64,000 nt of DNA from Candidatus Polarisedimenticolia bacterium (GTDB taxonomy: Bacteria; Acidobacteriota; Polarisedimenticolia; Gp22-AA2), in contig DASYUH010000056.1 in assembly GCA_036001465.1 (NCBI GenBank), forward strand, positions 1 to 64,000. Reading direction: 5' to 3'. A program made the translations under genes and the position numbers. Positions 12,320 through 29,422 of the stretch are shown piece after piece (position 1 is the first letter of the stretch; every line of letters starts with the position of its first letter). Below the pieces are notes generated by a model, which did no database searches, had not been told where the DNA came from, and saw only the letters and a program-made list of their open reading frames with translations.

Positions 12320-12424
12320 TCCCCGGGGCCCTCCTCGGACACACTCCTGGCCGGACGATTACGGGATCGGCATGCCCAGGCGAGAGAAGTGCCACCCTGT
12401 GTGCCTTTTTACACGCAGAATGAT

Positions 12425-12454
12425 TTGGACAGGAGGGGGGGATCGGAGTATATT
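12425..12454 (+). promoter_or_regulatory. Predicted promoter for the HprK-PqqD-radical SAM operon
   Basis: TTGGAC (12425-12430), an 18 bp spacer and TATATT (12449-12454) lie about 66 bp before the ATG at 12521. The spacer contains AGGAGGGGGG, which looks like a ribosome-binding site but has no canonical start codon at the right distance. The stretch 12320-12520 otherwise holds only a 31-codon ORF (12372-12467) with no recognisable features. Confidence 0.45.
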
Positions 12455-12520
12455 TCGCCCGACCTAGAAGCCATCTGCATCGATCGGGTCGGCGCCAACC
12501 TGGGGGTTCGCGACCACGTG

Positions 12521-13450
12521 ATGTCATCTGGTGTGGAAATCAGCCCCGCACTCGTACGGGGCGAGTTCCGGCCGGACGAGGGGTACTTTACCTTGCCCGC
12601 GGAGACCTTCGGGCCCCGGTCCGTCAGCCTGTCCATCGGCCCGATCGTCATCGGGATCGAGGGCCTGTCCGGGCATCAGGCGGAGGCGCTCGGCTCCCGG
12701 TACCGTCCTTTCGTGGTCCTGGAGGCGGGGGACCCGGATGTCCGCGTCTCGCTGCGGAAGGCGGGAGTCGACCGGTTCCTGGAGTTCCGCGGAGGCCCCG
12801 GCGGAGAGACCTACCGGCTCGAGAGCCGCCTGAGCGGCCCGAGGCTGACGCTCTGGTCGTACGAGTTCGCCGGCTTCATCGAGGCGACCGCCCATCGTGC
12901 CGAGCTGGCGCTCACCCGCGACGACGGGGCGCTGTTCGACCGCGGACTGGAGAACTTCCTGCGGGTCGTGACGGCGTCGTTCATCCTCGAGCGGGACGGT
13001 TTCCTGCTGCACGCCGCCGGCGTCGTGCGCGGGGGAAAGGCCTATGTCTTCTTCGGGCCCTCGGGGAGCGGCAAGACCACGGTGACGGACCTGTCGCCGG
13101 ACGACGTGGTCCTGAGCGACGACCTGACGCTTCTGATCCGGACCGGCGGGGGATACGAAGCGGCCGGGATCCCGTTCGGCCTGGCGCACCATCGGATGCC
13201 GGAGACGCGCGCGTCGTTCCCGGTGGCGTCGTTGAACCGGCTGGTGCAGAGCGCCGAGGTGCGTCGCGAGATGCTGCCGGGCGCGCGGGCCGTCGCGGAG
13301 GTGGCCGGCAGCCTCCCCTTCGTCATGCAGGAGACGCGGCAGGCGGCGCGGGCGGTCGACGTGGTGGCACGGGCGCTCGAGGCGCTGCCTGTCTGGCGGC
13401 TGCACTTCCGCAAGGACGGCGATTTCTGGAACGTCGTCGAGGAGCCGTAG
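12521..13450 (+). CDS. HPr kinase/phosphorylase-like protein (copy 2)
   Basis: 309 residues from ATG 12521. The frame is open further upstream to a GTG at 12389, but the predicted promoter lies inside that extension, so I prefer the shorter form. It has a P-loop GPSGSGKTT (179-187), LSDDLTLLI (DD200-201) and the ending LHFRKDGDFW, all shared with the copy at 6452-7372. It lies 6 bp before a PqqD-like gene and in an operon with a radical SAM gene, a context typical of peptide natural-product loci. It probably phosphorylates a small molecule or peptide side chain; the acceptor is not known. Confidence 0.85.
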   Translation: MSSGVEISPALVRGEFRPDEGYFTLPAETFGPRSVSLSIGPIVIGIEGLSGHQAEALGSRYRPFVVLEAGDPDVRVSLRKAGVDRFLEFRGGPGGETYRLESRLSGPRLTLWSYEFAGFIEATAHRAELALTRDDGALFDRGLENFLRVVTASFILERDGFLLHAAGVVRGGKAYVFFGPSGSGKTTVTDLSPDDVVLSDDLTLLIRTGGGYEAAGIPFGLAHHRMPETRASFPVASLNRLVQSAEVRREMLPGARAVAEVAGSLPFVMQETRQAARAVDVVARALEALPVWRLHFRKDGDFWNVVEEP

Positions 13451-13456
13451 GGGACC

Positions 13457-13735
13457 ATGGATCAGGGGGCCGTTCTGACGAGGAACCCGAGCGCGGCGTA
13501 TCGCGTCTACGACGGCCAGGCGACCGTCGTCATGCCGGACCGGGCCGAGGTGAAGGTGATCAATGCGATCGGCAGCGTCATCTGGGATAAGATCGACGGC
13601 AGGCGGACGGTGGGCCAGATCGTCGAGTCGGCCCTGGAAACGGTCCTCGAAGGCTACGACGTGGCCCCGGACGTGGCGCGCCGGGACATCCTGACGTTTC
13701 TCGGCGATCTGCGGGAACACGGAATGGTGAGCTGA
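13457..13735 (+). CDS. PqqD-like peptide-recognition (RRE) protein
   Basis: 92 residues, the usual size of stand-alone PqqD proteins. Diagnostic features are LTRNPSAAYRVYDGQATVVMP near the start, AIGSVIWDKIDGRRTVGQIV (W43 and the DG turn) and DILTFLGDLREHGMV at the end. PqqD-type domains bind the leader of a precursor peptide and hand it to the modifying enzyme. It ends 1 bp before the radical SAM gene. Since pqqA, pqqB, pqqC and pqqE homologues are not seen here, it is unlikely to serve PQQ synthesis. Confidence 0.9.
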   Translation: MDQGAVLTRNPSAAYRVYDGQATVVMPDRAEVKVINAIGSVIWDKIDGRRTVGQIVESALETVLEGYDVAPDVARRDILTFLGDLREHGMVS

Positions 13736-13736
13736 G

Positions 13737-14843
13737 ATGGCGAACGCGCTGCAGGAGATCACGATCCGCAACTGGAATCGCGCCGTGCCGATGTCGGCGC
13801 TGTTCGAGCTGACCTTCGTGTGCAACCACGCCTGCTCCTTCTGCTACAACTGCCCGACCGGCCAGAAGGAGATGACCACCCGGGAGGTCTTCGACGCCCT
13901 GCAGAAACTGGCCGACTTCAACATCCTCTACCTGACGCTGACGGGGGGCGAGCCCCTGGTGCGCAAGGACTTCTTCGAGATCGCCGCGCGGGCGCGCGAG
14001 CTCGGCTTCGCGCTGCGCATCTACACCAACGCCTACCTGATCGACGAGGCGATGGCGAAGAGGATCAAGGACGTCGCCAACCCGATCGAGATGGAGATCA
14101 GCATCCACGGCGCGAAGCCCGAGACGCACGACAAGCTGACCTGCGTCCCCGGGTCGCTGCAGCGCGTGGTCAACGCGGTGAAGCACCTGCGCGCTCAGGG
14201 GATCAAGGTGAACCTCAAATGCCCGATCACCCGGGACAACCAGGCCGAGGTGCTCGACCTGCACCGGCTGGCCCGGGAGCTGGGGGTGGTCATCATCTTC
14301 GACCCGGTGATCACGCCGCGCGACGACGGCGACAAGGACCCGCTCTCCCTCATGGCCAGCGACGAGTTCCTGAAGTCCTACTGGTCGGATCCCGCCTACG
14401 CGGCGGCGCGCATGGAGCCGGTGCCGTCCCCGCGCTCGGATGCGCCGGGCGAGGCGGTGTGCGGCACGGGCCGATCGTCGTTCGCCATCGATCCGTACGG
14501 CAGCATCTATCCCTGCGTGCAGTGGCGCCGCAAGGTGGCCAACATAAAAGACGTCGCGTCCCTCAAGGAGATCTGGCACACGTCGCCGGTCCTGATGGAG
14601 GTGCGCCAGACCGCGGTGGAGATGGCCGACAAGCTCCGGGACATGCATCACGAAGGACAGTCCGGCGGCTTCTGCAATTTCTGCCTGGGAGTGGCGGATC
14701 TTCAAGCCGGCGACCCGAAGGCCTACTACCCGCAGGCCGCCAAGAACGCCGAATACAGGAAGCAGGCCTACGAAGCCTGGAAAGAGAAGACGGGAGAAAC
14801 GCTCGAGGATGCCGGGGGAATCCTCAGCAAGTGCAGCATGTGA
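13737..14843 (+). CDS. Radical SAM enzyme with SPASM-like C-terminus
   Basis: 368 residues. CNHACSFC (C29, C33, C36) binds the SAM-cleaving 4Fe-4S cluster; TLTGGEPLVR is the SAM-binding GGEP motif. C-terminal cysteines C242 and C260 (CGTG...GSIYPC), CNFC (C313, C316) and C366 near the end fit a SPASM or reduced-SPASM domain carrying an extra cluster, as in PqqE and peptide-modifying enzymes. It sits directly after the PqqD-like gene, as expected for a RiPP maturase with a separate recognition protein. The product is unknown; a peptide crosslink, epimerisation or related change is the usual outcome in this superfamily. Confidence 0.9.
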   Translation: MANALQEITIRNWNRAVPMSALFELTFVCNHACSFCYNCPTGQKEMTTREVFDALQKLADFNILYLTLTGGEPLVRKDFFEIAARARELGFALRIYTNAYLIDEAMAKRIKDVANPIEMEISIHGAKPETHDKLTCVPGSLQRVVNAVKHLRAQGIKVNLKCPITRDNQAEVLDLHRLARELGVVIIFDPVITPRDDGDKDPLSLMASDEFLKSYWSDPAYAAARMEPVPSPRSDAPGEAVCGTGRSSFAIDPYGSIYPCVQWRRKVANIKDVASLKEIWHTSPVLMEVRQTAVEMADKLRDMHHEGQSGGFCNFCLGVADLQAGDPKAYYPQAAKNAEYRKQAYEAWKEKTGETLEDAGGILSKCSM

Positions 14844-14906: not shown

Positions 14907-17900
14907 ATGCGCTCGTCACATATCCTCCGAATCCTCATCATCGGCGCCCTGAGCGCCCTCGTCATGGCTCCGGGCAGCGGCGCCCCATCGCTGCACCAGG
15001 GGAGCGCCCATCTGCGCCTGAAGGCGGGGCAACCGGTCCTGGAGCCGGCCGACCAGGGCCGCCGCGTCGTGCCGCGGCTGCCCGGATTCGGAACGGCGAG
15101 CCTCCCCGGTCAGCCGATGCTGCCGATCAAGGTCCTGATGGTGGCGATCCCCGAAGGGAGCGTCCCGGAGCTGAGGGTCCTGTCGGCCCCGTCGGAGCTG
15201 CTCGGCGCCCTGGACGTCGCCCCGGCGCCGCGCGTCCGGGTGCCGGAGCGGCTGGAGCGGCCGCGTGGCGTCGGCCGGAAGGACCGCGGCCAGGGACACG
15301 ACAGAAACGATGCGGCCCTGCAGGACTACGAGGACGACTTCACGGCCGACGCGGAGGTCGACGGGCGGGACGAGGACTTCCCCGCCGCGGTGGTCCGGCT
15401 GGGAAGCATCGGATACCTGCGGGAGCAGCGCTACGTGGAGGTCCTCTTCTCGCCGGTCCTCTACAACCCCGTGCGGGGCCAGGCCCGGCTGGTGCGCGAG
15501 TTGGAGGCGGACGTGGTCTTCGACCTGCCGGACGGTTCCGTCCCATCCGGCGGCGGGCCCTTCGAGCCCGATCCGCTGTTCGAGAACACCTACCGCGACA
15601 GCCTGGTGAACTACGAGCAGGGGAAGCTGTACCGCGTCCGGCGCGGTGAAGCGGCCCCGGACGCGACGGCAGCCCCGGACACCACGGCGGCGTCGACCGC
15701 CGGGACGATCGAATCGGCGCCGGCGGCGGCGACGGGGGCCGTGCGCTACAAATTGTCGGTGTCACGGCCGGGAATCTACCGGCTCAGCCAATCCTACTTG
15801 ATGCTCCACGCCCCGGAGATGGTCACGGCCAACCCGAAAGGGCTGATGCTGAGCGCCGAAGGGGTCGAGGTGCCGATCCTGATCCGCGACGCCTTCGGCA
15901 ATCCAGGTGAGGCGGACAACAGCTTCGACGCGGGAGACGTGCTCGAGTTCTACGGTCAGCCGAAGCGGGAGCTCGCCGCCCTCCCGAACCTCCCGACCAT
16001 CTTCCAGGCGAACGATTTCACCGACACCCAGGTCTACTGGCTGGAGGCGAAGGACCCCGCCGAACCCCGCAGGCGGATTCCCTCGGTGAGCGGCGCGCCG
16101 ACCACCCAGAGCCCTCCGATCGCGCCCCACTTCGAGGACCAGGCGGTGTGGGACGAGAACAACCTCTACCTGCCGCTCGAGGACAACGACCCGTTCTTCT
16201 CGGTGCCCTCCCTCCTCGCCGGAAGCACGCAGGCGACCCGCGACATCAGCATCCCGCTTCCCGGGATGGCGGCGGTCCCGGCGACCGCGACCCTGACGTT
16301 CCGGGTGCGTGGCGGATCCGACGTCTCCACCGTCAGTCTCGATCACCGCACGCGCGTCTGGGTGAACAACGACACGGGAGGAGGGAAGGACGACATCTGG
16401 GGGGACGGAGAGACCATCCTGTCGGACAGGTTAGACGAGGCGCAGTCGGTCCTGACCAACCCGACGACGGTCCACTTCAGCGCGCCCGGACAGGCCGGCG
16501 TCACACTCGACAAGCAGTACCTCGACAGCGTGACGATCCGCTACCGGCGCACCTTCGCGTCGACCGGGGACGTGCTCCCGTTCTCCTACCCGAACCAGGC
16601 GACGCGGTTCCAGGTGTCCGGATTCAGCGGTTCAACCGCGACGATTTTCGAGGTCTCGCGCACGCTCACGGGCAGCCTCGAGGCCGACCCCTCCCGGATC
16701 ACCGAGGCGCAGGCCGGCGGGGCGCCGACGACGCTGACCTTCGACGTGCCGCTCGACACGTCCTCCGGCGCCCCGGCGACGCGGTCCTTCATCGTGGCGG
16801 GTCCGGCGGGAGGACGGCTGCCCGACGGCATCGCGCGCGCCGCCGATCCGGTCCTCACGAACCCGGCGAACGCCGCCGACATCGTGGTGATCGCCGCGCG
16901 CAGCACCATCGACGATGCCCAGGGCGGCGCGCTCGACAACCTGCTCGCGTACAGGTTCCAGAGCCAGGGGCTCACCTCGAAGATCGTCTACGTCGACCAG
17001 ATCTACGACGAGTTCGCGTTCGGTCTCAGGAGCGTCACGAGCATCCGCGCCTTCCTGTCCTACGCCTTCGATAACTGGAGGGGGCCGGGCGGCACGGCGC
17101 GGCCGCCGTCGTTCGTTCTCATCGTGGGGGACGCCACCCCCGATTACAAGGACACGCTGCAGGACGCTGACTGGGTCGATCAGGTTCCGACGATGATGCT
17201 GTTCCAGAAGAACTCCATCCTGGGCTACTACAGCAGCGACAACTGGCTGGCCTCGTTCCGCGGCGCCGATCAGATCGCCGACATCTACCTCGGGCGGATC
17301 AGCACCAGGACGCCCCAGGCCGCGGCCGAGGTCTTCGACAAGATCAGGACGTACGAACAGTCGCCGCCGGCCGGTACGTGGAAAGGGCGCGCCGTGCTCC
17401 TGGCCGGGGACGGCAAGGACTCGCTCGAGACCGCGGATTTCGAAGCGGTGCAGGACAACCTGACGTCCGCCGATTTCTCGACCGCGCCGTACAGCGTTCC
17501 TTCCCCGCCGCTCTACCTCGCCCGTTCGCCCTGGAACCTGAACGCCGCGGCATTCAAGAACGCGCTCGTGAACGAGCTTCAGTCGGGGGCGGCGGTCCTG
17601 TCGTATGTCGGACACGGATCGTTCGAGACCTGGGGGGGAAAGCCGCAGACGACTTTCTTCACGACGCAGGATGCCCATGACCTGACCAATGGCGCGCCGA
17701 TCCCCTTCATGTTGAACATCAACTGCCTGGCCGGCGGCTTTCACTACCTGAGCGCGGTGGGGGCGATCGGGGAGGCGATGACCAACAACGCCAACGGCGG
17801 CGCCATCGCGACGCTCGCCCCCTCGGGCCTGTCGAACACGTTCGTGGGAGATGTCGCGACGCCGACCCTGTTCAGATCCCTGTTGGGAATCGGACGTGAC

Positions 17901-19220
17901 CGGCTGCTCTCGGCGGGGGCGATGGCGTTGAGGACATCCCTGTGGAGCCAGAATCTGATCGTCGACTCGCAGTCTTACACATTCCTCGGCGACCCGGCGA
18001 CTCTCATCGCCACCCCGGCGCCCACGGCGCCCTCTGGCCTGTCCGCCTCCGCGGGCAACGGAGAGGTGGCGCTGGACTGGACGGCTGCCCCGGGGCCGGT
18101 GGCAGGCTACCGCATCCTGCGGGCCACCGCGGCGGGCGGACCATACTCCACGGTCGCTTGTGATCCGGTGACGACGACCTCATGCGTTGATCGCACGGTG
18201 ATCAATGCCACGACCTACTACTACTACGCCGTCTCGCTCGACTCGGAAGGATTCTGGGGGGGAGCCTCCAACGACAACAGCGACTGCGACGCCGGTCCGG
18301 AATGCGTCCTGGCCCGGCCGATCAATCCAAACCCTCCCGCTGTCCCGACCGGCCTGGCGGCCGTTGATGCAGGCACGGGCGGAACACTCCTCTTGTCGTG
18401 GCGGGCGAACAGCGAGAGTGACCTCAAGAGTTATCGTATTTTCTATGGCACGACCGAGGGGCAGTACCCCACGCAACTGACGTTCGGGCCGGCGGTGACC
18501 TCCTCGCTGCTGGTCGGATTGCAGGACGGCATCCGCTACGTCTTTGTCATCAGCGCCACGAACACGTCGGGGCAGGAGAGTACACAGTCGACGCCGGTCT
18601 TCGGAGTTCCGCACACGATCCAGGGGATCGCCCCGCCCAGCTCCATCACCGACCTGAAGGTAACCCGTTCCGGCCAGGATCTGGTCTTGACCTGGAGCCA
18701 GCCGACCCTCGACATCTACGGCAGGGCCACGACCGTGGCGCGTTACGATATCTATGCTGCGCCCACTCCAAACGCTGTAAAATCGGCCATCAATCGGATC
18801 GGCACCCTTATGGGAGCGACGAGTACGACGTTCACGCACACGGGTGCGGCCATCTCGCCGGGCAACAAGTTCTATGTCGTGACGGCGACCGACACGAACG
18901 GGTTCGAGTCGGGGGCCGGACGCGAGCTGCCGAACGGCATCAACCCGCTCCAGATTTCGCTGGTCAGCGCCAGCCCGCTGGTCGTCCGGCTCACTTGGCC
19001 GGCCATCACGACCGACCTCCTCGGCAACCCGACCCTCATCCACCACTACCAGATCCACCGGTCCGCCACCCCTGCTGCAAGGGCCTCGCTCAATTCCTCG
19101 ACGATTTTCCGCGACAACGTCCAGGTTCTTTCGGTAGATTTGGATCTGACGGGATTGAGCGATCCGTCCTATTTTAGCGTGATCGCCGTGGACAACCAGG
19201 GAAACCTCAGTCCCTTCTAG
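14907..19220 (+). CDS. Secreted C25 (gingipain-like) cysteine protease with four FN3 domains
   Basis: 1437 residues. A Sec signal peptide (1-26) and a long pro-region (cleavage sites not assigned) precede a caspase-like C25 domain. The catalytic pair is visible as H903 in YVGHGSFETWGG and C940 in NINCLAGGF. From about 1036 four fibronectin type III repeats follow to the C-terminus, each starting like TAPSGLSA or VPTGLAA and carrying LDWTA/LLSW/LTWS/LTWP. There is no recognisable Por-type sorting tail. It probably acts outside the cell or at its surface. It begins 63 bp after the radical SAM gene on the same strand, so co-transcription is possible. That makes it a candidate leader protease as well as a general protease; the first is speculation. 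Confidence 0.88.
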   Translation: MRSSHILRILIIGALSALVMAPGSGAPSLHQGSAHLRLKAGQPVLEPADQGRRVVPRLPGFGTASLPGQPMLPIKVLMVAIPEGSVPELRVLSAPSELLGALDVAPAPRVRVPERLERPRGVGRKDRGQGHDRNDAALQDYEDDFTADAEVDGRDEDFPAAVVRLGSIGYLREQRYVEVLFSPVLYNPVRGQARLVRELEADVVFDLPDGSVPSGGGPFEPDPLFENTYRDSLVNYEQGKLYRVRRGEAAPDATAAPDTTAASTAGTIESAPAAATGAVRYKLSVSRPGIYRLSQSYLMLHAPEMVTANPKGLMLSAEGVEVPILIRDAFGNPGEADNSFDAGDVLEFYGQPKRELAALPNLPTIFQANDFTDTQVYWLEAKDPAEPRRRIPSVSGAPTTQSPPIAPHFEDQAVWDENNLYLPLEDNDPFFSVPSLLAGSTQATRDISIPLPGMAAVPATATLTFRVRGGSDVSTVSLDHRTRVWVNNDTGGGKDDIWGDGETILSDRLDEAQSVLTNPTTVHFSAPGQAGVTLDKQYLDSVTIRYRRTFASTGDVLPFSYPNQATRFQVSGFSGSTATIFEVSRTLTGSLEADPSRITEAQAGGAPTTLTFDVPLDTSSGAPATRSFIVAGPAGGRLPDGIARAADPVLTNPANAADIVVIAARSTIDDAQGGALDNLLAYRFQSQGLTSKIVYVDQIYDEFAFGLRSVTSIRAFLSYAFDNWRGPGGTARPPSFVLIVGDATPDYKDTLQDADWVDQVPTMMLFQKNSILGYYSSDNWLASFRGADQIADIYLGRISTRTPQAAAEVFDKIRTYEQSPPAGTWKGRAVLLAGDGKDSLETADFEAVQDNLTSADFSTAPYSVPSPPLYLARSPWNLNAAAFKNALVNELQSGAAVLSYVGHGSFETWGGKPQTTFFTTQDAHDLTNGAPIPFMLNINCLAGGFHYLSAVGAIGEAMTNNANGGAIATLAPSGLSNTFVGDVATPTLFRSLLGIGRDRLLSAGAMALRTSLWSQNLIVDSQSYTFLGDPATLIATPAPTAPSGLSASAGNGEVALDWTAAPGPVAGYRILRATAAGGPYSTVACDPVTTTSCVDRTVINATTYYYYAVSLDSEGFWGGASNDNSDCDAGPECVLARPINPNPPAVPTGLAAVDAGTGGTLLLSWRANSESDLKSYRIFYGTTEGQYPTQLTFGPAVTSSLLVGLQDGIRYVFVISATNTSGQESTQSTPVFGVPHTIQGIAPPSSITDLKVTRSGQDLVLTWSQPTLDIYGRATTVARYDIYAAPTPNAVKSAINRIGTLMGATSTTFTHTGAAISPGNKFYVVTATDTNGFESGAGRELPNGINPLQISLVSASPLVVRLTWPAITTDLLGNPTLIHHYQIHRSATPAARASLNSSTIFRDNVQVLSVDLDLTGLSDPSYFSVIAVDNQGNLSPF

Positions 19221-19235: not shown

Positions 19236-19859
19236 ATGGACGTTACGAGGCCGCGCAGCATGAGCGAGGTAGGGGTCCCGTCCGGTTCGGCGCGGGGGGA
19301 GCCGGGCGAGGTCACCGCCCTGGTGGTGCGCGCCAAGGCGGGTGACGCCGACGCGTTCGCCGGACTGATGCATCTGTATGAGCGCCGGATCATCGGCATC
19401 GGGATCCAGATGGGACTGTCTCGCGAGGACGCACTCGACGCCTGTCAGGACTCCTTCGTCAAAGTCTTTCGCTACATCGGACGGTTTCGCTCCGGGGAGT
19501 CATTCTTTAAGTGGCTCTACCGCATCGCCATCAATACAATTTATGACCATTTGCGCATCAACCGGCCGGCGGAAATCGTCTCGCTCGAGGAGGTCGTGCG
19601 GGACGGAAGGCAGGAGATCGCCGATGGCGCCGAGCCGATGGCCACACGGCTGGAGAACGCGGACCTGGTGAACAAGCTTGTCGCCGAAATCGGATGCCTG
19701 ACGCGCCAGGAGAGGATCGTCTTTGTTCTCAGGGACCTGCATGCCATGCCGACAGATGAAATCGGCAGAGTGCTCAGCCTGTCCCAGGTTACGATCAGGC
19801 GCCACTGCATGTCGGCTCGCGGAAAACTGCGGGATCGCCTCTTTCCGCGAAAGCCTTGA
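19236..19859 (+). CDS. ECF-type RNA polymerase sigma factor
   Basis: 207 residues. Region 2 spans about 40-108 (ALDACQDSFVKVFRYIGRF, FFKWLYRIAINTIYDHLR) and region 4 about 152-202 (CLTRQERIVFVLRDLHAMP, DEIGRVLSLSQVTIRRH). It is a short sigma-70 family member without regions 1 and 3. A later ATG at 19260 is possible. It lies at the head of a block of secreted proteins. The zinc-finger anti-sigma-like gene at 26534 may be its partner although they are 6.7 kb apart. Target promoters are unknown. Confidence 0.92.
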   Translation: MDVTRPRSMSEVGVPSGSARGEPGEVTALVVRAKAGDADAFAGLMHLYERRIIGIGIQMGLSREDALDACQDSFVKVFRYIGRFRSGESFFKWLYRIAINTIYDHLRINRPAEIVSLEEVVRDGRQEIADGAEPMATRLENADLVNKLVAEIGCLTRQERIVFVLRDLHAMPTDEIGRVLSLSQVTIRRHCMSARGKLRDRLFPRKP

Positions 19860-19927: not shown

Positions 19928-20005
19928 GAGGCCAGGGGCGAGATCTCGGTTGATCTGTGCCCGTTGCCATCAATCAACGCTTCCATTTCGACATGGGGGA
20001 ATTCG

Positions 20006-21778
20006 GTGAAGACCCTTCTCAAATCCCTGGTGGGTGTTGGAGCGGTCGCGTTCCTTGTGCTGCTCACGCCGGCAGCCTACGCGCAGTGCACCTTCAGCCT
20101 TCCTGCGATCCACTACCTCGACACCACCTGGACGGGGCTGCCCGAGGCGAACATTTCCAGCCGGTTCTTTATTCTTACCAATCCGGCCATCAACAACGGC
20201 ACGTCGGCGTTCTTGTGCGCCTCCTCCGACCAATTCGTGTCCGGCGGGTTCTGCCAGAGCAGCGCCGGCCTTCCGGACGACGGCATCGTCACCGCCAACG
20301 GCAACTTCGCCGGAGAGGGCGTCGTTGGCTGTCCGAACGTGGCGATTGATGGCGACTCCCCGGTTGTGGCGTTCGTAACGGCGATCGCCTCGGAAGGGAC
20401 GCCCATGCACGAGGGTCGCTACGTGCTGGTCAGCGTCGGATTCAGCTTCAACTTCCAGGCCTATGTCTTCGATCTGGCGAATCCGATCGGTCCGAACGGC
20501 CTGCCGATTAACCTGGGCAGCTCGCGCATCCCGTCGCCGCGCATCCTCTCTTCGGTCCCGGGCTCCTCGACGGCGAGCGTCAACATTCAATGGGACAGGG
20601 CCAACACACGGGACGACTGCCTTCTCAACCTGGCCGGGACCTGTCCTTCGGGGGGAACCCGTTCCATCCTCGAGGGTTATGCCGTCTACTCCCAGGTGTC
20701 TTCCTGCAGTGCTCCGCCGACTTCGAGCGTCGTAACCAACGGCTGGACCGAGGTGGCCCGGTACGGAGCGTCGGCGACTTCCGCCACAGTCACGGTTCCC
20801 TTCGATCCCAGCGGCGCCAACTGCACCTACCTGGCGATGGGTCTCTTGGTCGGAGGAGCCCCGGGTAGGGCGGTCTCGACCCACACCACGCTCGGCATAC
20901 TCGACACGGACGGCGACGGCGTGGCGGACTCCTTCGATAACTGCCCGTTCGTCGTGAACGCGAACCAGGCCGACACCGACCTGGGAGGGCCGGACGGCGT
21001 CGGCGACGCCTGCGACAATTGTCCGGGGCTGCAGAATCCTTCCCAGATCGATGCCGACAACGACACCAAGGGGGATGTCTGCGACAATTGTCCGAGCACC
21101 GCCAACGCGAACCAGGCGAATGCGGACGGCGACAGCCGCGGCGACGTGTGCGACAACTGCATCGCGGTCCCCAACGATTCCCAGACGGACAACGACGCCG
21201 ACGGCCGCGGCAATGCCTGCGACAACTGTCCGGATGCCGCCAATCCCAGCCAGGCCGACGGTGACGCGGACCTGGTGGGGGACATCTGCGACAACTGTCC
21301 GGCCGCGCCGAACGCCAACCAGGCCGACACGGACGGTGACCGGCTCGGGAACCTGTGCGACAACTGCCCGACCGTTCCAAATCCGACGCAGGTGGACCAG
21401 GACTTCGACCGGGTGGGGGACGCGTGCGACAACTGCCCGACCATCCCGAACGCCGACCAGAACCCGGCGGTCTGCGAGCAGCGGGCTGAGCAGATCTTCA
21501 TCAGCTTCAGCAGCCCGCTGGGGAAGGGATCCGGCACGGTCTTCTGGGTGACCTCGACAGAGGTGGACATCATCGGATTCAACGTCGTGAAGATCGACTC
21601 CAAGGGGACGAGGACCCAGCAGAACGTGGGCCCGATCCGCTGCGAGGAGTGCGTCACGGGTGTCGGCCACTCGTACAGCTTCATCATCCCGAAGCACAAG
21701 AGCGGTACCAACATCTACATCGAGATGCTGCGGCTCAACGGGACCGTGCAGGTCTTCGGGCCGGCCGTCCGGCAATAG
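20006..21778 (+). CDS. Secreted thrombospondin type 3 repeat protein A
   Basis: 590 residues. I place the start at GTG 20006, not at the earlier ATG, because GGGGGAA lies 7 nt upstream and the resulting N-terminus ([17 protein letters not shown]) aligns with paralogue B. A signal peptide ends near AAYAQC. A conserved globular region follows, then from about residue 303 around eight Ca-binding thrombospondin type 3 repeats ([27 protein letters not shown] and so on). The C-terminal ~95 residues contain [18 protein letters not shown] and a CEEC pair, a module also present in B and partly in the protein at 28072. Probably a surface-attached, calcium-stiffened protein. Confidence 0.88.
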
Positions 21779-21803
21779 CAGACTCGAGAGTCAAGCGTTT
21801 TCG

Positions 21804-21841
21804 ACCCCGGCTCGGCCCCGAAAGGGCCGAGCCGGGGTTTC
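21804..21841 (+). terminator. Rho-independent terminator after gene A
   Basis: A 15 bp perfect stem (ACCCCGGCTCGGCCC, 21804-21818, with its complement at 21824-21838), loop CGAAA, followed by a short T-rich tail (TTTCTGTCGTT), 25 bp after the stop of thrombospondin-type-3 gene A. Confidence 0.85.
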
Positions 21842-21958
21842 TGTCGTTATCTCCCTGGTCGCGGTTAATGGTGGATTGGATATCCCCGAGACTCAGGAGT
21901 TGCGAAAGAACTGAACGGGATGGTCCCGTATGAGGTAGATAGGATTGGGAATTTGTCC

Positions 21959-21986
21959 TTGACATCGTGGTATTTCGGGGTATCTA
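21959..21986 (+). promoter_or_regulatory. Promoter of thrombospondin-type-3 gene B
   Basis: TTGACA (21959-21964), 16 bp spacer, TATCTA (21981-21986), matching the promoter of gene A at 19900-19927. The transcript would have a leader of about 120 nt before the start at 22113. The stretch 21842-22112 (271 bp) otherwise holds nothing I recognise except the AATCAACGCT and CCATGGGGGAA segments shared with gene A. Confidence 0.65.
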
Positions 21987-22112
21987 GGGAGGCAGGGTGA
22001 GGTCTCTATTTACTCTGCACCGCAGGCAGTCGGTCGACCGGGCTCGGTCTGTGAAAGTCATCGTACCTTATCAGGGAATCAACGCTCAATAATCTCCATG
22101 GGGGAAATCTCA

Positions 22113-23876
22113 ATGAAGACATTCCTCAAATCTCTGGTCGCCATCGGAGCGGTCGCAGTCGCGCTCCTGGTCGCCCCGGCAGCCCACGCGCAGTGCAACT
22201 TCTCCCTGCCCGCGGCGCATCTGCTCGACACGACCTGGACGGGGTTGCCCGAGGCGAGCCTTTCCGGTCGCTTTTTCGTCCTGACCGATCCGGCCGTCAC
22301 GAGCGGAAGCGCGGCGTTTCTGTGCCCCTCCGCCGCGGACGTCACGACTGGTGGCCCGTGCCAGACCAGCGCGCTCTTACCGGATGACGGCATTGTCACG
22401 GTCAACGGGAATTTTTCCGGCGAGGGCGTGATCGGCTGCCCCAACGTGTCCGTCGACGGCGACGCCCCGGTAGTGGCATTCGTCACGGCGAGCTCCGGGG
22501 AAGGTACGGCCATGCATGCGGGCCGCTATGTCCTGGAGGCTGTCGGATTCAGCTTCAACTTCCAGGCCTACGTCTTCGATCTGGCCAATCCGATTGGCCC
22601 GAACGGCCTGCCGATCAGCATCGGCGCTTCCCTCATCCCATCGCCCCGCATCGTTTCGTCTACCACGGGTACCGGCGACGCGACCGTGAACATCCGGTGG
22701 GACGAAGCGGCCACGCGTGACGACTGCGAGCTGAACCTCGCCGGGACCTGCCCGGGCGGTGGCCGCCGGTCGATCCTCGAAGGATACGCAGTCTATTATC
22801 AGGAGGGTGACTGCGCCGCGCCTCCGACCTCCGGTGCGGTCGGTGGCTGGACTGAAGTCGTCCCCCGGTACCCTGCGGCCGCGCGGTCGGCGACGCTGGT
22901 CGTCCCGTTCCACCCGGAGAGCGGCATGTGCACCTATCTGGCGATGGGTCTCGTCGTCGGCGGTGCCCCGGGACCCGTGGTTTCCGGCCACACGACCCTC
23001 GGTACGGCGGACACCGATGGCGACGGCGTGCCCGACTCGACCGACAACTGCAAGTTCACCCCGAACCACGGCCAGGAAGACATTGACAACGACACGATCG
23101 GCGACGTCTGCGACAACTGTCCTGGCGCCGCGAACCGAGGCCAGGAAGACCTCGACGGCGACGGCGACGGGGATGCGTGCGACAACTGCAAGACCATCCC
23201 GAACGCCGACCAGGCGAATGCGGACAGCGACAGCAACGGAGATGTGTGCGACAACTGCCGTGGCACCGCCAACGACAACCAGGCCGACGCCGACGCTGAC
23301 GGTGTGGGCGACGCGTGCGACAACTGCAGGGCCTCGAACAATGCCGACCAGGCCGACGGGGACGGAGACGGCGCCGGCGACGTCTGCGACAACTGCCCGA
23401 CCGATTCGAACCCGGGTCAGGCGGACGGCGACGGCGACATGATCGGCGACGCGTGTGACAATTGTCCGACGATTCCCAATCCGACGCAGGACGATGGTGA
23501 CTTTGATCGCGTCGGGAACGCGTGCGACAACTGCCCGACCATTCCGAACGCCGACCAGAACCCCGAGGCCTGTTTCCAGCGGGTGGAGAACCCGACGATC
23601 ACGTTCACCAGCACGGTGGGCAAGGGCTCCGGGACCGCTGCCTGGAGTACTTCGCACGAGGTGGATCTGATCGGGTTCAACGTGGTGGTCATCGACGCCA
23701 AGGGGGTCAGGATCCAGCAGAACATGGCCCTGATCCGCTGCGAGCCGTGCATCACGGGCGACTCGCACCAGTACAGCTTCATCGTCCCGAAGCACAAGAG
23801 CGGCCACAACATCTTCATTGAGATGCTGCGACTGAACGGGACCGTAGAGGTCTTCGGGCCGGCGGCCAGGCAGTAG
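22113..23876 (+). CDS. Secreted thrombospondin type 3 repeat protein B
   Basis: 587 residues, a tandem paralogue of gene A over its full length. The start is ATG 22113, with GGGGGAA upstream as in A. The signal peptide ends at AAHAQC. The N-terminal globular region shares [34 protein letters not shown] and [23 protein letters not shown] with A. Calcium-binding thrombospondin type 3 repeats follow, then the C-terminal module WSTSHEVDLIGFNVVVID with CEPC. It has its own promoter and terminator. The pair arose by duplication of the whole transcription unit; divergence is moderate and spread evenly, so both are likely functional. Confidence 0.88.
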   Translation: MKTFLKSLVAIGAVAVALLVAPAAHAQCNFSLPAAHLLDTTWTGLPEASLSGRFFVLTDPAVTSGSAAFLCPSAADVTTGGPCQTSALLPDDGIVTVNGNFSGEGVIGCPNVSVDGDAPVVAFVTASSGEGTAMHAGRYVLEAVGFSFNFQAYVFDLANPIGPNGLPISIGASLIPSPRIVSSTTGTGDATVNIRWDEAATRDDCELNLAGTCPGGGRRSILEGYAVYYQEGDCAAPPTSGAVGGWTEVVPRYPAAARSATLVVPFHPESGMCTYLAMGLVVGGAPGPVVSGHTTLGTADTDGDGVPDSTDNCKFTPNHGQEDIDNDTIGDVCDNCPGAANRGQEDLDGDGDGDACDNCKTIPNADQANADSDSNGDVCDNCRGTANDNQADADADGVGDACDNCRASNNADQADGDGDGAGDVCDNCPTDSNPGQADGDGDMIGDACDNCPTIPNPTQDDGDFDRVGNACDNCPTIPNADQNPEACFQRVENPTITFTSTVGKGSGTAAWSTSHEVDLIGFNVVVIDAKGVRIQQNMALIRCEPCITGDSHQYSFIVPKHKSGHNIFIEMLRLNGTVEVFGPAARQ

Positions 23877-23894
23877 TATTCTGGTATAAGATGG

Positions 23895-23939
23895 ACCCCG
23901 GTCCCGCGCCGAAGATGGGCGGGACCGGGGTTTGCTTTC
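23895..23939 (+). terminator. Rho-independent terminator after gene B
   Basis: Stem ACCCCGGTCCCGC (23895-23907) pairs with GCGGGACCGGGGT (23919-23931) around an 11 nt loop, followed by TTGCTTTCT. It resembles the terminator after gene A (same ACCCCGG base) and lies within the leader of the FG-GAP gene. Confidence 0.8.
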
Positions 23940-23950
23940 TGAGGCGCCGC

Positions 23951-26479
23951 ATGAGATGCAGATCGGCTCTACTGTCCTGCCTTCTGGTCCTGTTCATCAC
24001 TTCCCCCCTCCTGGCGCAATCCTCCTTGAAGACACGCCAGGACTATGTCGTCGGGGATCATCCTGTGGGGGTGGTCGCCACCGACTATGACGCCGACGGG
24101 TTCCTCGACCTGATCACGGTGAATCAGCAGACGGACGGGAACGGGGACATCGCTCTTCTGAAGGGGTTCGGCGACGGCAGGCTTCGCAAGGTCAGCTCCA
24201 TCGTTTCGGGGTCCCTGCCGTCGGCGCTCGTCTACACGGACGTCAACAGCGACGGCAAGCCGGACCTGGTGGTTGCCGACCTGCGCAGCCAGGAGATCAC
24301 CGTCCACCTCGGCAATGGGACGGGCGGGTTCGGGGCCAAGCTGTCCACCTTGATCGTCGGGACGCCGGCCAGCCTGGCGGTGGGGGACTTCAACGGCGAC
24401 GCCAAGCCCGACGTGGCCATCCTGAATTCGGCGCAGAACAACGTGCAGATCCTCCTCGGGGACGGCCTCGGCCGGTTCCCGACCAGCCGGCAGACTTTCG
24501 CGATCGCCGCCTCGTCGAAGCAGATCCTCACGATCGATCTCAATGCCGATGCGAAGCGCGACCTGCTGGTAGTCAGCAACACCACGAACACCCTCCGCAT
24601 CCTCCGCGGGGACGGCACGGGCCTGTTCACCCTGAACACCACGCTGACGACGGGGACCGGACCGGTCGCCATGGTCACCGCCGACTTCAACAACGACACC
24701 CGGCCCGACATCGCCGTCGCCAACCAGGCCGGGGACAATGTGTCGGTCTTCTTGCAGTCGACCAGCGGCTCCTTCGGGTCGCCTTCGACACTGTCTCCGG
24801 GCTTCGGGCCGAGAGGCATCGCGGTCGCCGATCTCAACAAGGACGGTCGGATCGATCTGATCGTGACCCTCGGCAAGGTATCGCAGGAGGGTCAGGTGGC
24901 CCTGATGACCGGCAACGGCGCCGGCGGGTTCACCCTGCTGAATACGCTCTTCGTCGGGCCGGCGCCGAACTGGGCGGCGACGGGAGACTTCAACCGGGAC
25001 GGCAATCTCGACCTGGTCACCGCGAACAATACGGGGAACACCGTGTCGCTCGTGCCGAGCATCGGCACGGCGACCTTCCTGATTCCGGGACGCATCCCTC
25101 TGCCGTTCGGCTCGTTCCCGGCGTCGGTGGTCGTCGGTGATTTCAACAATGACAGCAAGGTGGACGTCATCTCGGCCAACGAGCAGACCAACAACATCAG
25201 CGTGGTGAACGGCGACGGCCTGTGCGGCTTCACGTCCGTCACCTCCGCGAACAACACCGGCATCACGCCAATCAACATCGTGGCCACCCATTTCAACGCG
25301 GACAGCTGCCCCGACCTCCTGACCGTCAATAACGGGGACGGGTCGTTTTCCATCATGCTGGGCAACTGCGCGGGCAATTTCGCGGTCACCAACGGCAACG
25401 CGGTCGGATGCCCCGACCCGATATCGGTCTCGGTGGGGGACGTGAACGGCGACGGCCGCCGAGACATCGGCATGATCTGCGAGACCGCCGGCGAGCTGTG
25501 CACCCGGCTCGGAACGGGAGTCTCGTCTCCGGTGTTCGGCTTGCTCTCCCTCTGCACGCCGTCGGTGACTGCCACTCCCCAGGGGGTGGCGATGGGCGCC
25601 TACAACCTGGACGCCGACGAGGACTACGCGATCACCTCCAGCCCGGTCCCGAGCGGCGACCCGACCGACATCATCGCCATCGCCAAGTCGGACGGTCTCG
25701 GCGGCGTGCTGGACATCCCCGCGACCTTCCCGGTCGGACTGTCGCCGCGGGGCGTCGTCAACGCCGATCTGAACGGCGACGGGTTTCTCGACCTGCTGGT
25801 CGCCAACAGCGGCTCGAACAGCATCAGCGCCCTTCTCGGCGACGGTGGCGGCGTCTTCAGCTTCCCCTCCATCGACAGCCCGGCAGGGCAGGCCCCGACG
25901 TCGATTGCCGTGGCCGATTTCAACCTGGACGGCAAGCTCGACGCCGCGACCACCAACACGAACGCCAACAACGTGTCGCTCCTGCTGGGCGACGGGTTCG
26001 GCCATTTCACCAAGGCAGGGGACTACGGCACGCGCGACCTGCCGATTTCAATCGGGGCAGGGGACTGCAACGGCGACGGCAAGCCGGACCTGCTGGTGGC
26101 CGACAACTTCAACGATACGATCACCGTCCTGGTGAACCAGACGGCGGCGGGGGACCCGCTTCAGGTCACGGATCTTTTCGGCCAGACACAAACGGTCTAC
26201 TCCTGGGGAATTGTGGCCGGCGCAAAGTACGACGTCATCCGCGGGCAGCTGCGCCTGGCCAGTCAGGGGCCGACCACCAATAGCCTGGGGCCCGTGACCT
26301 GTCTGGCCAACGACCTCACCGAGACCGACACGGCCAATCTTCCTGACACCACATACCCTCCATCGGGGGACGCCTATTTCTACCTGGTCCGGGCGACCGT
26401 CGGCGGTCTGGCCGGCAATTACACGGTCTCCGTGCCGGGCGGGAAACCGGGCGTCCCGTCCTCTGGCGGGTGCCCTTGA
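23951..26479 (+). CDS. Secreted FG-GAP/VCBS repeat protein (beta-propeller type)
   Basis: 842 residues from ATG 23951, with a signal peptide ending near PLLAQS. Almost the whole protein is FG-GAP repeats with calcium-binding loops, about 14 in all: DYDADGFLDLITVN, DVNSDGKPDLVVAD, DFNNDTRPDIAVAN, DFNRDGNLDLVTAN, DLNGDGFLDLLVAN, DCNGDGKPDLLVAD and others. This predicts two integrin-alpha-like beta-propellers. The last ~100 residues are different, with a Tyr-rich YLVRATVGGLAGNYTVSVPG-like end. Typical roles are adhesion or binding at the cell surface; the ligand is not known. Confidence 0.88.
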   Translation: MRCRSALLSCLLVLFITSPLLAQSSLKTRQDYVVGDHPVGVVATDYDADGFLDLITVNQQTDGNGDIALLKGFGDGRLRKVSSIVSGSLPSALVYTDVNSDGKPDLVVADLRSQEITVHLGNGTGGFGAKLSTLIVGTPASLAVGDFNGDAKPDVAILNSAQNNVQILLGDGLGRFPTSRQTFAIAASSKQILTIDLNADAKRDLLVVSNTTNTLRILRGDGTGLFTLNTTLTTGTGPVAMVTADFNNDTRPDIAVANQAGDNVSVFLQSTSGSFGSPSTLSPGFGPRGIAVADLNKDGRIDLIVTLGKVSQEGQVALMTGNGAGGFTLLNTLFVGPAPNWAATGDFNRDGNLDLVTANNTGNTVSLVPSIGTATFLIPGRIPLPFGSFPASVVVGDFNNDSKVDVISANEQTNNISVVNGDGLCGFTSVTSANNTGITPINIVATHFNADSCPDLLTVNNGDGSFSIMLGNCAGNFAVTNGNAVGCPDPISVSVGDVNGDGRRDIGMICETAGELCTRLGTGVSSPVFGLLSLCTPSVTATPQGVAMGAYNLDADEDYAITSSPVPSGDPTDIIAIAKSDGLGGVLDIPATFPVGLSPRGVVNADLNGDGFLDLLVANSGSNSISALLGDGGGVFSFPSIDSPAGQAPTSIAVADFNLDGKLDAATTNTNANNVSLLLGDGFGHFTKAGDYGTRDLPISIGAGDCNGDGKPDLLVADNFNDTITVLVNQTAAGDPLQVTDLFGQTQTVYSWGIVAGAKYDVIRGQLRLASQGPTTNSLGPVTCLANDLTETDTANLPDTTYPPSGDAYFYLVRATVGGLAGNYTVSVPGGKPGVPSSGGCP

Positions 26480-26533
26480 GGAAATTGCGGACCATTCTTG
26501 AACGGTATTCCTCATGAGACGGTATATACGGTC

Positions 26534-27109
26534 ATGAAGAGATGCAGAGATTTCAACGCGCTCTTGCCCCTTTACTCCGGCGGCGAGCTCAGCGAGGCGG
26601 AGAACCTGGAGGTGAAAGGTCACTTGGCTCGGTGTGCGGCCTGCCGTGAGGAAGAGGAGCAATTCACGCAGGTTATCGGGATCGCCCGGCAAGCAGGCTC
26701 TGGGGAGTATCGAATTCCAGAGATGGTTGCCAACAGGATTGCGCTCGAGGCGTCATCACGCCCCTCGCGCAGGCCATGGGGCTTTCCTGTTCCATCCTTT
26801 TCGCTGTCCGCCCACCCTGGTCTTCTGGCGGGCGCCGTAGCGTTCGTTTTCATTTTGGCGGCGCTGCCGATTGCCATGCGTGACGTTAACCGTCCGATTC
26901 GCCAGACCGGAGTCTCGGTCCTTGACATCACGGCCGATGGCGGCGTCGTCAGGCTGGCGTGGAGCGACGGAAGTCGTGATTTGTACAGGGTTTACAAGAG
27001 CACCGATCCACGGGACATGGGGCAATCCGAGGTTCATGTCGTCAGGGGTAACGTCTGGACCGACAAGCGCTCCGAATCGTCTCCGATTGTGTATTACAGG
27101 ATCGAGTGA
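26534..27109 (+). CDS. Zinc-finger anti-sigma-like membrane protein with FN3-like periplasmic tail
   Basis: 191 residues. The cytoplasmic N-terminus has the zf-HC2/ZAS motif H30-LAR-C34-AA-C37 of anti-sigma factors. One membrane helix lies at about 95-114. The periplasmic remainder (VVRLAWSDGSRDLYRVYKS ... YYRIE) reads like a single fibronectin type III domain, which is unusual for this family. I start at ATG 26534; a TATATA box (26523-26528) lies 5 nt upstream, suggesting a leaderless transcript. It is the obvious candidate partner of the ECF sigma factor at 19236, despite the genes between. The FN3-like part might sense secreted surface proteins; that is speculation. Confidence 0.8.
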   Translation: MKRCRDFNALLPLYSGGELSEAENLEVKGHLARCAACREEEEQFTQVIGIARQAGSGEYRIPEMVANRIALEASSRPSRRPWGFPVPSFSLSAHPGLLAGAVAFVFILAALPIAMRDVNRPIRQTGVSVLDITADGGVVRLAWSDGSRDLYRVYKSTDPRDMGQSEVHVVRGNVWTDKRSESSPIVYYRIE

Positions 27110-27133
27110 GAAGGGTCCGGTTTCAAGTTCCTG

Positions 27134-27161
27134 TTGACAAACTTGCATTTGAGCGTAAATA
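27134..27161 (+). promoter_or_regulatory. Promoter of the 27193-29359 operon
   Basis: TTGACA (27134-27139), 16 bp spacer, TAAATA (27156-27161). The segment TTTGAGCGTAAATA closely matches AATGAGCGTAAGTA in the promoter on the other strand at 40937-40910, suggesting common control. An AAGGAGG ribosome-binding site follows just before the first gene. Confidence 0.65.
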
Positions 27162-27192
27162 GAAGTGGCCTAATTTCAAGGAGGCAATAGAC

Positions 27193-28029
27193 ATGATCAG
27201 ACTCAAATCAATGCGCCCGTCTCTGGCGATTCTCGTCGCGGCTGTCCTGATTGTGGCGGCCGGGGGAGCCGTCATCGCGTCGAACATGGGGTTCAAGATG
27301 AACAAGCCCCTGGTGAGGGTCCCGACCGGAGCCGCCACCCTGACGGGCAACAACTGGACGTCGATCCCGTTTCACAACCCGTACGGGACGATTCAGGGCT
27401 TCTGCAATCAGACCGGCCTGACATCCACCGGTTTCTCGGTGACCGGAATCTCCACGCTGAACTACAACGAGCCGCCGTTCTCCCCGGCACTCTCTGGAAA
27501 GTGCAGCAACCAGGCTTCACTTCCCTGTCCCGCTACCGCATCGACAAACTCGTTCTGCTCTTGCACCACCGACGCCGACTGCCCCGCCGTCGGGACGGGC
27601 AGCCCCTTCTTCTGCGCCGAGGGCCCCAAGAATTTCAACTGCGGTTCCGCCGGGGCGTCGGCCCAGTCCCTTATCAGTGGCAAGGGGTTCCAGATCCGCC
27701 AGCCGGCAGCCGGAGTTTCCAGCATCATCATCGTCGGCTCCCATAATTCGGGTCAACAGATTCAAATCAAGAAGAACGTAAACTATTGGTACAGCGTGCC
27801 GTACCATACGACCGCGGTCAATACAAACGACCTGTGCACCCAGCTGGGGCTGACCGCCACGGGCTTCGGCCCGGCGGGGATCACCCGCCTGATTCCCGGC
27901 CCGCCGGCCGCCCCCCAGTCGACGACCTGCGGCTCGACGACCACGGTCTTCAATCTGGTCCTCGGTGAAATGATCCAGGTCCGCGAGCCGACCAAGACCT
28001 CGGTTACCTTCACACCGGCGCACTATTAA
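27193..28029 (+). CDS. Secreted protein of unknown function with internal duplication
   Basis: 278 residues from ATG 27193 (AAGGAGG 9 nt upstream). The N-terminal hydrophobic segment (about 10-29) is a signal peptide or anchor followed by ASNMGFKMNK. Two halves look alike: NNWTSIPFHNPYGT...CNQTGLTSTGFSVTGIS (about 54-94) and NYWYSVPYHTTAVNT...CTQLGLTATGFGPAGIT (about 197-235). A Cys-rich loop lies between them (CSCTTDADCP). I do not recognise the family. It is first in an operon with another secreted protein and the small Cys peptide. Confidence 0.7.
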   Translation: MIRLKSMRPSLAILVAAVLIVAAGGAVIASNMGFKMNKPLVRVPTGAATLTGNNWTSIPFHNPYGTIQGFCNQTGLTSTGFSVTGISTLNYNEPPFSPALSGKCSNQASLPCPATASTNSFCSCTTDADCPAVGTGSPFFCAEGPKNFNCGSAGASAQSLISGKGFQIRQPAAGVSSIIIVGSHNSGQQIQIKKNVNYWYSVPYHTTAVNTNDLCTQLGLTATGFGPAGITRLIPGPPAAPQSTTCGSTTTVFNLVLGEMIQVREPTKTSVTFTPAHY

Positions 28030-28071
28030 TCGGCAGTGAACCTCATCATCGGGGAACGGAGGAATCAAGAC

Positions 28072-29223
28072 ATGAAGAGAGTGATTCTAGTACTGGCGGT
28101 TCTTGGCGTGATGGCGCTCGCGGCCCCATCGGCATACGCGGCGTGTGGCGCCTCGGTGCCGCTGCTCCACGGTTTCGACTCGTATTTCGCGTGCGATAAC
28201 TCCAGGGGGCCGGTGACCGCCTTTGCCTACCTGGTCAGCGCTCCGAGCGCGACCAATACCGGTCCGGTCGGGATCATTCGCGACCTCGGCGCCGGCAAGG
28301 TCGATATTCAGACCGACTGGTCCACCCCGGGTGTCATCGGCTGCCCGCAGGACGCGCTGGGGAACCACCGAATCATGATCGTCGTCCAGGCCAACGATGG
28401 CACGGGTCTCATGACCTCGATCAGCGGCGCCTCAGCCACGCTCGCTTTCGGCTACACCGTCGAGACGTCCCAGCAATTCCTGGGGTTCGACGATACGGGG
28501 AAGGTGCTGGCAGCTCCGCTGCCGTGCGGGACTTCGAATGGCAGGCCGAGGATCGTCAGCGTTTCCCCCTCCTCGGTGCAAATCCACGTCGATCCGCCGC
28601 ACATCTTCTCCGACTGCGACTCAGGCACCGTAGGAGAGGCATTGGGGGACGCTTGTGTGGACGGCTTTGGCGGCACCGTGCTGCCCGTCGGCCGCATCTT
28701 TACCAGTAACCAGCCCTGCGGCACGAGGCCGGACGTGCGCAGCTCGCTCTGGACGGTGAGCACGGCCGTCCTGGATGCCGCGGGCAATGCCAACGTTCCG
28801 TACACCAAGCCTGACAACGGCACCAAGCAATGCGCCACCGATCCGACCTGCCTGTGCGCCTACATCGGGACCACGACGGGCACCGGCACCGGGGAGAGCA
28901 GCTCGATCAACGGCTTCATCTCCGTGGCTGGCACGCTTGCCGCTCAGCCGACCGCCGAGAACGTTCGTGCGACGACAGACAGCGGCAAGGTGAAGCTCTC
29001 CTGGAGCACGTCGAACGAGGTCGGCCTGGCCGGGTTCAGGCTCATCGCCGTATCCAAAACCAAGGGCCAGTTCGAAATCGGTTCGCTCATCGCCGCGAAT
29101 GGAGCGGCCTCGTCCTACACCGCCGAAGCGCGCATGGGTGACCTAAAAGGCTCGCGTTCGATCATCATCCGCTCGGTGCTGACGAACGGAACCACGGTCG
29201 ATGCGGCCCCGGTCAACTTTTAA
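28072..29223 (+). CDS. Secreted protein with C-terminal EVGLAGF-type module
   Basis: 383 residues. I take ATG 28072, which gives a clean signal peptide ending SAYAAC; the frame is open 12 codons further. The N-terminal region (PLLHGFDSYFACDN...GPVTAFAYLVS) is not recognised but recalls the globular part of the thrombospondin-type-3 proteins in tone (secreted, Cys-poor). The C-terminal ~80 residues contain KLSWSTSNEVGLAGFRLIAV, a beta-sandwich module matching the WSTSHEVDLIGFNVVVID module of gene B. Co-transcribed with the gene upstream and the peptide downstream (19 bp gap). Confidence 0.75.
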   Translation: MKRVILVLAVLGVMALAAPSAYAACGASVPLLHGFDSYFACDNSRGPVTAFAYLVSAPSATNTGPVGIIRDLGAGKVDIQTDWSTPGVIGCPQDALGNHRIMIVVQANDGTGLMTSISGASATLAFGYTVETSQQFLGFDDTGKVLAAPLPCGTSNGRPRIVSVSPSSVQIHVDPPHIFSDCDSGTVGEALGDACVDGFGGTVLPVGRIFTSNQPCGTRPDVRSSLWTVSTAVLDAAGNANVPYTKPDNGTKQCATDPTCLCAYIGTTTGTGTGESSSINGFISVAGTLAAQPTAENVRATTDSGKVKLSWSTSNEVGLAGFRLIAVSKTKGQFEIGSLIAANGAASSYTAEARMGDLKGSRSIIIRSVLTNGTTVDAAPVNF

Positions 29224-29242
29224 GGGAGAGGGAGAAGGACTC

Positions 29243-29359
29243 ATGAAAAAAGCCTACGAAAAGCCCGCGATCATCCACACGGAGAAGATCGAGGCACGCG
29301 CCGTCGCCTGCTCCAAGTCGGATGACGCGTGTGTCACGCGGGGTCCCATCACGAGCTAG
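29243..29359 (+). CDS. 38-residue Cys-containing peptide, candidate RiPP precursor
   Basis: A small gene with strong support: AGAAGGA ribosome-binding site about 6 nt before ATG 29243, operon position after a secreted protein, and a strong terminator 24 bp after the stop. The peptide starts MKKAYEKPAII, continues TEKIEARAVACSK and ends CVTRGPITS, with cysteines at 23 and 30. It has no hydrophobic signal. YEKPAI fits the YxxPx(L/I) motif that PqqD-type recognition proteins bind in lasso-type leaders (known from that family). The Cys-rich tail would then be the core. No modification enzyme is adjacent; the nearest PqqD/radical SAM pair ends at 14843. It could instead be a regulatory or structural micro-protein. 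Confidence 0.7.
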   Translation: MKKAYEKPAIIHTEKIEARAVACSKSDDACVTRGPITS

Positions 29360-29382
29360 GATTGGTCCTGAGGCGAGTCGTG

Positions 29383-29422
29383 GAGCCACCGGGTCTCGCG
29401 ACCCGGTGGCTCTTTGTTTTTT
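29383..29422 (+). terminator. Strong Rho-independent terminator
   Basis: GAGCCACCGGGTC (29383-29395) pairs perfectly with GACCCGGTGGCTC (29400-29412) around a TCGC loop, followed by TTTGTTTTTT. It ends the 27193-29359 operon; the converging membrane-protein gene stops at 29459. Confidence 0.93.

Follow-up and report, generated by a model that had tools for sequence, protein, structure and literature searches.

Does the 38-residue open reading frame (ORF) that closes a row of genes in the 64,000-nucleotide stretch of DNA analysed here (the window) encode a modified peptide, and if so, which enzymes act on it? A preliminary description had taken it for a RiPP precursor, and had named as possible partners a PqqD-like protein, a radical SAM (rSAM) enzyme and two HprK-like proteins encoded in the window; these genes were all found (Table 1). 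Acidobacteriota are common in soils and sediments, and few of their peptide products have been characterised. Our reading is that the ORF very probably encodes the RiPP precursor of an Acidobacteriota family, modified by the RiPP recognition element (RRE), the rSAM enzyme and the kinase of the same operon. A lone 38-residue ORF is thus turned into a testable enzyme-substrate set made of precursor, recognition protein, radical SAM enzyme and kinase.

Table 1. Features of the peptide operon and its surroundings (positions in the window).
Feature	Position	Strand	Remarks
Second HprK-like protein	6452..7372	-	Role in the peptide system uncertain
HprK-like kinase	12389..13450	+	P-loop; every residue of the lasso-peptide-kinase motif
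PqqD-like RiPP recognition element	13457..13735	+	Predicted fold like lasso B1 proteins
Radical SAM / SPASM-type maturase	13737..14843	+	CX3CX2C; invariant C242, C260, C316
C25 (gingipain-family) peptidase	14907..19220	+	With propeptide and fn3 domain; conserved H903 and C940 of catalytic type
ECF sigma factor	19236..19859	+	After the C25 gene in most relatives
Operon genes between sigma gene and peptide	19964..29223	+	This lineage
Shine-Dalgarno-like ribosome-binding site	29231..29239 (about)	+	Purine-rich, read from sequence
Precursor peptide gene	29243..29359	+	38 aa, MKKAYEKPAIIHTEKIEARAVACSKSDDACVTRGPITS; core with C23, C30 and C-terminal S38
Intrinsic terminator closing the operon	29382..29413	+	14-bp stem, then T tract

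The peptide gene and its family

The reading frame and its two cysteines were as previously described, and so were the ribosome-binding site upstream and the strong terminator on the 3′ side, whose 81-nt fold (-40.2 kcal/mol, z -3.9) was the strongest among 13 terminator hits. The "Glu-rich middle" that had also been mentioned proved weak, as it consists of E14 and E17 only. The peptide gene starts 19 nt after the end of the upstream gene, which encodes a protein of 395 aa. From position 12389 to the terminator, genes are arranged head-to-tail on one strand, with most intergenic distances below ~110 nt and a single one of ~320 nt, so that the peptide gene is probably the last of a ~17 kb operon, in agreement with the position first proposed. 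The segment following the sigma factor gene encodes two TSP3-repeat proteins, an FG-GAP protein, a zf-HC2 (anti-sigma-like) protein and two unknown proteins, of 278 aa and the 395 aa already given. The scan of the operon genes revealed no dedicated exporter.

Homologues of the peptide were searched by tblastn with the 38-residue query in 120 related genomes. Matches at E<=1 were found in 51 of the 120, and at E<1e-5 in 32 genomes besides the window's own (best, 9.5e-16). With the window gene as reference, pooled pS was 0.70 and pN 0.20 (pN/pS about 0.29), indicating purifying selection. Because homologues exist in related genomes and synonymous change is far above nonsynonymous change, a chance ORF is ruled out: this is a real gene, and its product a short encoded peptide under selection as a protein, as is a RiPP precursor. 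A generic pattern (basic residue, [YW]xxP, C...C, C-terminal S/T) was run over 20,824 start-stop readings of the fetched loci and matched 58 distinct ORFs, against 0 after shuffling; since these loci were picked partly for holding the peptide, independent evidence is limited to the shuffle contrast and to those loci selected through their rSAM gene.

The family has the motif MKKxYEKPxIxxTEKxEARAVxCxKxDxxxCxxGPIxS. Residues Y5, P8, E14, A20 and C23 are invariant across 26 diverse members, and the YxxPx[I/V] leader motif noticed earlier, which YEKPAI fits, is thereby conserved. The leader would cover residues ~1-19 or 1-22. Exactly two cysteines are present in 51 of 57 family peptides, the C-terminal residue is Ser in 50 of the 57 (Thr in 2), and an Asp stands at +4 or +5 after a Cys in 36 of 45 members. 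Core conservation is very high inside the class (mean column identity, 75%); outside it the core diverges strongly, with the two Cys and the terminal Ser retained. None of the peptides scores above the cut-off of a curated Pfam or NCBIfam model, the sub-threshold similarities being to PF19397 (leader) and NF050043; a plasmid search gave no match.

Some loci depart from this picture (genomes and loci are designated below by G and L numbers). Tandem pairs of diverged peptide genes occur in L060, L064 and L072 (G008, G018, G040). The G009 copy (L081:338-514) has its start and end in different frames and is probably a frameshifted remnant. Two Chloroflexota peptides (L091:6001-6114 and L093:1110-1229) have the same leader (YEKPAIVHELELETRAG) and a Cys-free core (SPLG...), which suggests, as far as sequence comparison goes, that one leader can serve different cores. 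Extra or stand-alone copies away from any rSAM gene were seen in L035, L037, L045 and L063; those of L035 and L037 adjoin what we take to be MnmE/MnmG/RsmG- and ParB-type housekeeping genes.

Association with the radical SAM, recognition and kinase genes

In the window, 14.4 kb separate the peptide gene from the rSAM gene. As the preliminary description had remarked, no precursor adjoins the latter: 63 nt only lie between the rSAM and C25 genes. The arrangement found in relatives is informative. At about 23 loci, the rSAM match is followed on its own strand, after 90-250 nt, by a small ORF, and this ORF belongs to the same family as ours; an unlike precursor at this place would have counted against the initial proposal. 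The common layout is HprK-PqqD-rSAM-peptide-C25-ECF sigma, with C25 often right after the peptide. The peptide thus co-clusters with an RRE and a modifying enzyme, adjacently in relatives and within one operon in the window.

Presence of the peptide also tracks that of the enzyme, a correlation that the preliminary description had proposed to check: a close rSAM orthologue was found in 29 of 33 peptide-positive genomes, versus 10 of 87 others (Fisher p 3e-15, uncorrected for kinship). A 30th peptide genome, G023, has its rSAM gene truncated at a contig edge (L036). The counter-example that had been named beforehand, peptide without rSAM, is limited to 3 of the 33 (G005, G022 and G038), whose assemblies are estimated 81-91% complete. 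Conversely, in most of the ten genomes with rSAM only, a diverged peptide was seen next to the rSAM or the C25 gene. Both peptide and rSAM were missing from G002, G003, G004 and G007, which are of the same genus or family (63-92% complete).

In the window and the nearest families (L054-L057 and L060, with L126, L127 and L125), C25 follows rSAM directly with no peptide between, and the peptide stands at the far end of the operon, after the two TSP3, FG-GAP, zf-HC2 and two unknown proteins. In the rSAM tree, these lineages are placed among others whose members have an adjacent peptide, so the simplest reading is a relocation of the peptide gene along the operon. Given conserved synteny, co-occurrence and tree position, we have little doubt that the peptide is the substrate partner of the RRE, rSAM and kinase set; the assignment originally suggested is strongly supported by the adjacent loci and the co-occurrence.

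The genome contains a second PqqD/rSAM cluster, outside the window (C56:110152-111368). It has its own precursor, MTNHNDSRRGHAARRPYETPRLSRVRLVPDEAVLASCKSNVTAGPGGPINKCSANPALCSHNAS, about 290 nt downstream (G000:C56:109679-109873), a 64-aa peptide with a YETPRL leader, three Cys and a terminal Ser, and orthologues in G001 and G006; cluster and precursor together span L078:9679-11105 (G000:C56:109679-111368). As this other rSAM has a precursor of its own, the 38-aa peptide was rejected as its substrate. Further precursor types, ALxCGK and FAASC, were found in other rSAM clades of the phylum. In the rSAM tree, enzymes with an ARAVxC peptide occupy one part, and those with AVLxxC, ALxC and FAASC types the other; for many rows the pattern picked up no peptide, so that the contrast between ARAVxC and other types is clear but incomplete. 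Distinct precursors with the same layout ([Y/W]xxP, 2-3 Cys, terminal Ser) were recorded in L099-L102, L104-L105, L112, L115-L117 and L121. Paralogous systems, each with a precursor of its own, hence occur in the phylum, and one of them in this very genome.

Proposed maturation and rival explanations

The PqqD-like protein was modelled with a pLDDT of 94.6; among solved structures, the closest in fold are TbiB1 and 6jx3, lasso B1 proteins with bound leader peptides. B1-like RREs bind [Y/W]xxPx[L/V/I/F/A] leaders (PMC13381572), a motif that YEKPAI also fits. From the predicted fold and the invariant motif, it is highly likely that the RRE would bind the leader through Y5-E-K-P8-A-I10.

The rSAM enzyme has the CX3CX2C motif, and SkfB and PqqE are its closest solved relatives by sequence. 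As only C242, C260 and C316 are invariant in its SPASM region, the auxiliary-cluster region looks reduced. The enzyme would act on and around the C23-x-K-x-D...C30 segment, where the most plausible product is a bond between the sulfur of a Cys and a residue close by, for instance D27 or D28. Considering the invariant C23, the prevalence of two Cys and the Cys-Asp spacing, we give such a Cys-based link about an even chance; Cys-Asp links have a precedent in freyrasin (PMC8326336).

In the HprK-like protein encoded from 12389, H208, G223, G226, G228, K229, T230, D244 and D245 are kept, with 15 residues from H to G. The RiPP kinase motif H-G-G-G-K-[S/T]-D-D, compared with that of BsfK, is thus complete, and the same motif is reported for lasso-peptide kinases (PMC10368454). 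The fold matches PEPCK and HprK, with low TM scores. The kinase would act on a serine, the likeliest being S38, which ends the peptide and is nearly invariant, by analogy with paeninodin-type lasso precursors. In lasso peptides, every phosphorylation known earlier had fallen on the C-terminal Ser (PMC10368454), and the terminal Ser is kept even where the core differs, so that this site is somewhat favoured; it need not be the right one, since BsfK and LppK, which represent the nearest kinase family in two studied systems, act on Ser3 (PMC10368454, PMC13381572). The first ~56 residues of this ORF (12389-12556) are modelled with a pLDDT of around 30, and most relatives, with ~300 aa, are shorter; translation thus probably begins further downstream and leaves these residues out. 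The second HprK-like protein is 34% identical to the first, and is also encoded near the operon in G001 and G006.

The linked C25 peptidase, which accompanies the peptide in distant lineages as well, is a candidate for leader removal, a role that we propose tentatively. Neither this linkage nor that of the terminal Ser with the kinase figured in the preliminary description. The idea that C25 would generally cut after R19, with Arg specificity, was dropped: the peptides linked to C25 in L052, L053, L074 and L077 have no such Arg. A review of RiPP leader proteases makes no mention of clan CD, caspase-type or C11 proteases, and no description of a C25 leader peptidase was found in the literature searched, subscription journals being mostly outside the search. 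Combining all steps, a phylum-wide class of Acidobacteriota phospho-radical-SAM RiPPs may be imagined, in which one B1-like RRE would serve both an rSAM enzyme making a Cys-based core link and an HprK-like kinase of the C-terminal Ser, with C25 as leader protease; taken as a whole, this is possible rather than probable.

Three other explanations were weighed. The peptide might primarily be a small partner, inhibitor or chaperone of C25, or of another secreted protein of the operon, rather than a modification substrate. In diverged lineages it does lie directly upstream of C25, and in L053 no rSAM was detected in 5 kb of upstream sequence. Nevertheless, G105 and G115 have rSAM clusters elsewhere in their genomes, in L034, L040, L072 and L073 the peptide comes after rSAM and no C25 match was found in the vicinity, and a YxxP leader, a pair of Cys and a terminal Ser are what one would expect of an RRE, rSAM and kinase substrate; we judge this explanation improbable. 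About as improbable, if anything a little more so, is a peptide-derived cofactor, where the peptide would still be a substrate and its core would be cut to a small redox or electron-carrier molecule, as for PQQ or mycofactocin. The pairing of PqqD with a SPASM-type rSAM, the high conservation of the core within the class and the best NCBIfam similarity of the rSAM, to mycofactocin MftC, all speak for it. The MftC and PqqE cut-offs are nevertheless missed, the core diverges strongly outside the class while the two Cys and terminal Ser stay, and no dedicated dehydrogenase was seen among the operon genes scanned.

A lasso peptide, matured by the lasso pathway, would account for the YxxPxI leader, the B1-like RRE fold, the HprK-like kinase and the weak leader-only similarity to PF19397, which is below cut-off. 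It was rejected as largely refuted, and we grant it almost no probability: PF13471 (lasso B2) has no match in the genome, nor in 11 of 13 peptide-bearing genomes, no asparagine-synthetase-like macrolactam synthetase gene is present among the operon genes scanned, and the conserved partner is a radical SAM enzyme. Our preferred reading is unchanged: a RiPP precursor served by the RRE, rSAM and kinase of its operon. The spread of the family across Acidobacteriota raises the possibility that its product may have a general cellular role.

Comparison with known systems

In the literature searched (subscription journals mostly outside the search), we found no description of the peptide family, nor any case of a single peptide acted on by an RRE, an rSAM enzyme and an HprK-like kinase, which points to a so far undescribed family of modified-peptide precursors in Acidobacteriota. 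With PQQ (PqqA/D/E) and mycofactocin (MftA/B/C), the system shares a PqqD-type RRE, a SPASM-type radical SAM and a short conserved precursor; it differs by the HprK-like kinase and by a precursor that is neither PqqA nor MftA, and the operon enzymes do not reach the cut-offs of the PqqD, PqqE and MftC NCBIfam models. Of the named models, those that come closest, or nearly so, are the SynChlorMet (Scm) proteins (HprK-like ScmC, PqqD-like ScmD and rSAM ScmE/F), with scores far below curated cut-offs for ScmC, ScmD and ScmE (29.9/125, 40/100 and 91/400 bits). Ranthipeptides and sactipeptides such as freyrasin also have a radical SAM maturase, and the +4 or +5 Cys-Asp spacing of the present family may recall them, a likeness of spacing alone; unlike them, the present system has two Cys rather than many, a separate RRE and a kinase.

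The Bacillota LPP RiPPs (LppA/LppB/LppK/LppS; PMC13381572) resemble it by a discrete RRE, a YxxP leader and an HprK-like kinase, and are not lasso peptides either. They have a signal-peptidase-like leader peptidase, an NTP transferase and variable C termini, whereas the Acidobacteriota system has a radical SAM enzyme, a conserved two-Cys core, a terminal Ser and a linkage to C25. Finally, paeninodin-type phosphorylated lasso peptides and BsfA/BsfK have in common with it a discrete RRE of B1 fold (predicted here), a YxxPx[I/L] leader, an HprK-like kinase with the same motif and H-to-G spacing, and the terminal Ser. In contrast to these, no B2 peptidase gene was found, a radical SAM enzyme is present instead, and the core has two conserved Cys. 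The system would work like a hybrid of phosphorylated lasso peptides and radical SAM RiPPs, being by test a member of neither.
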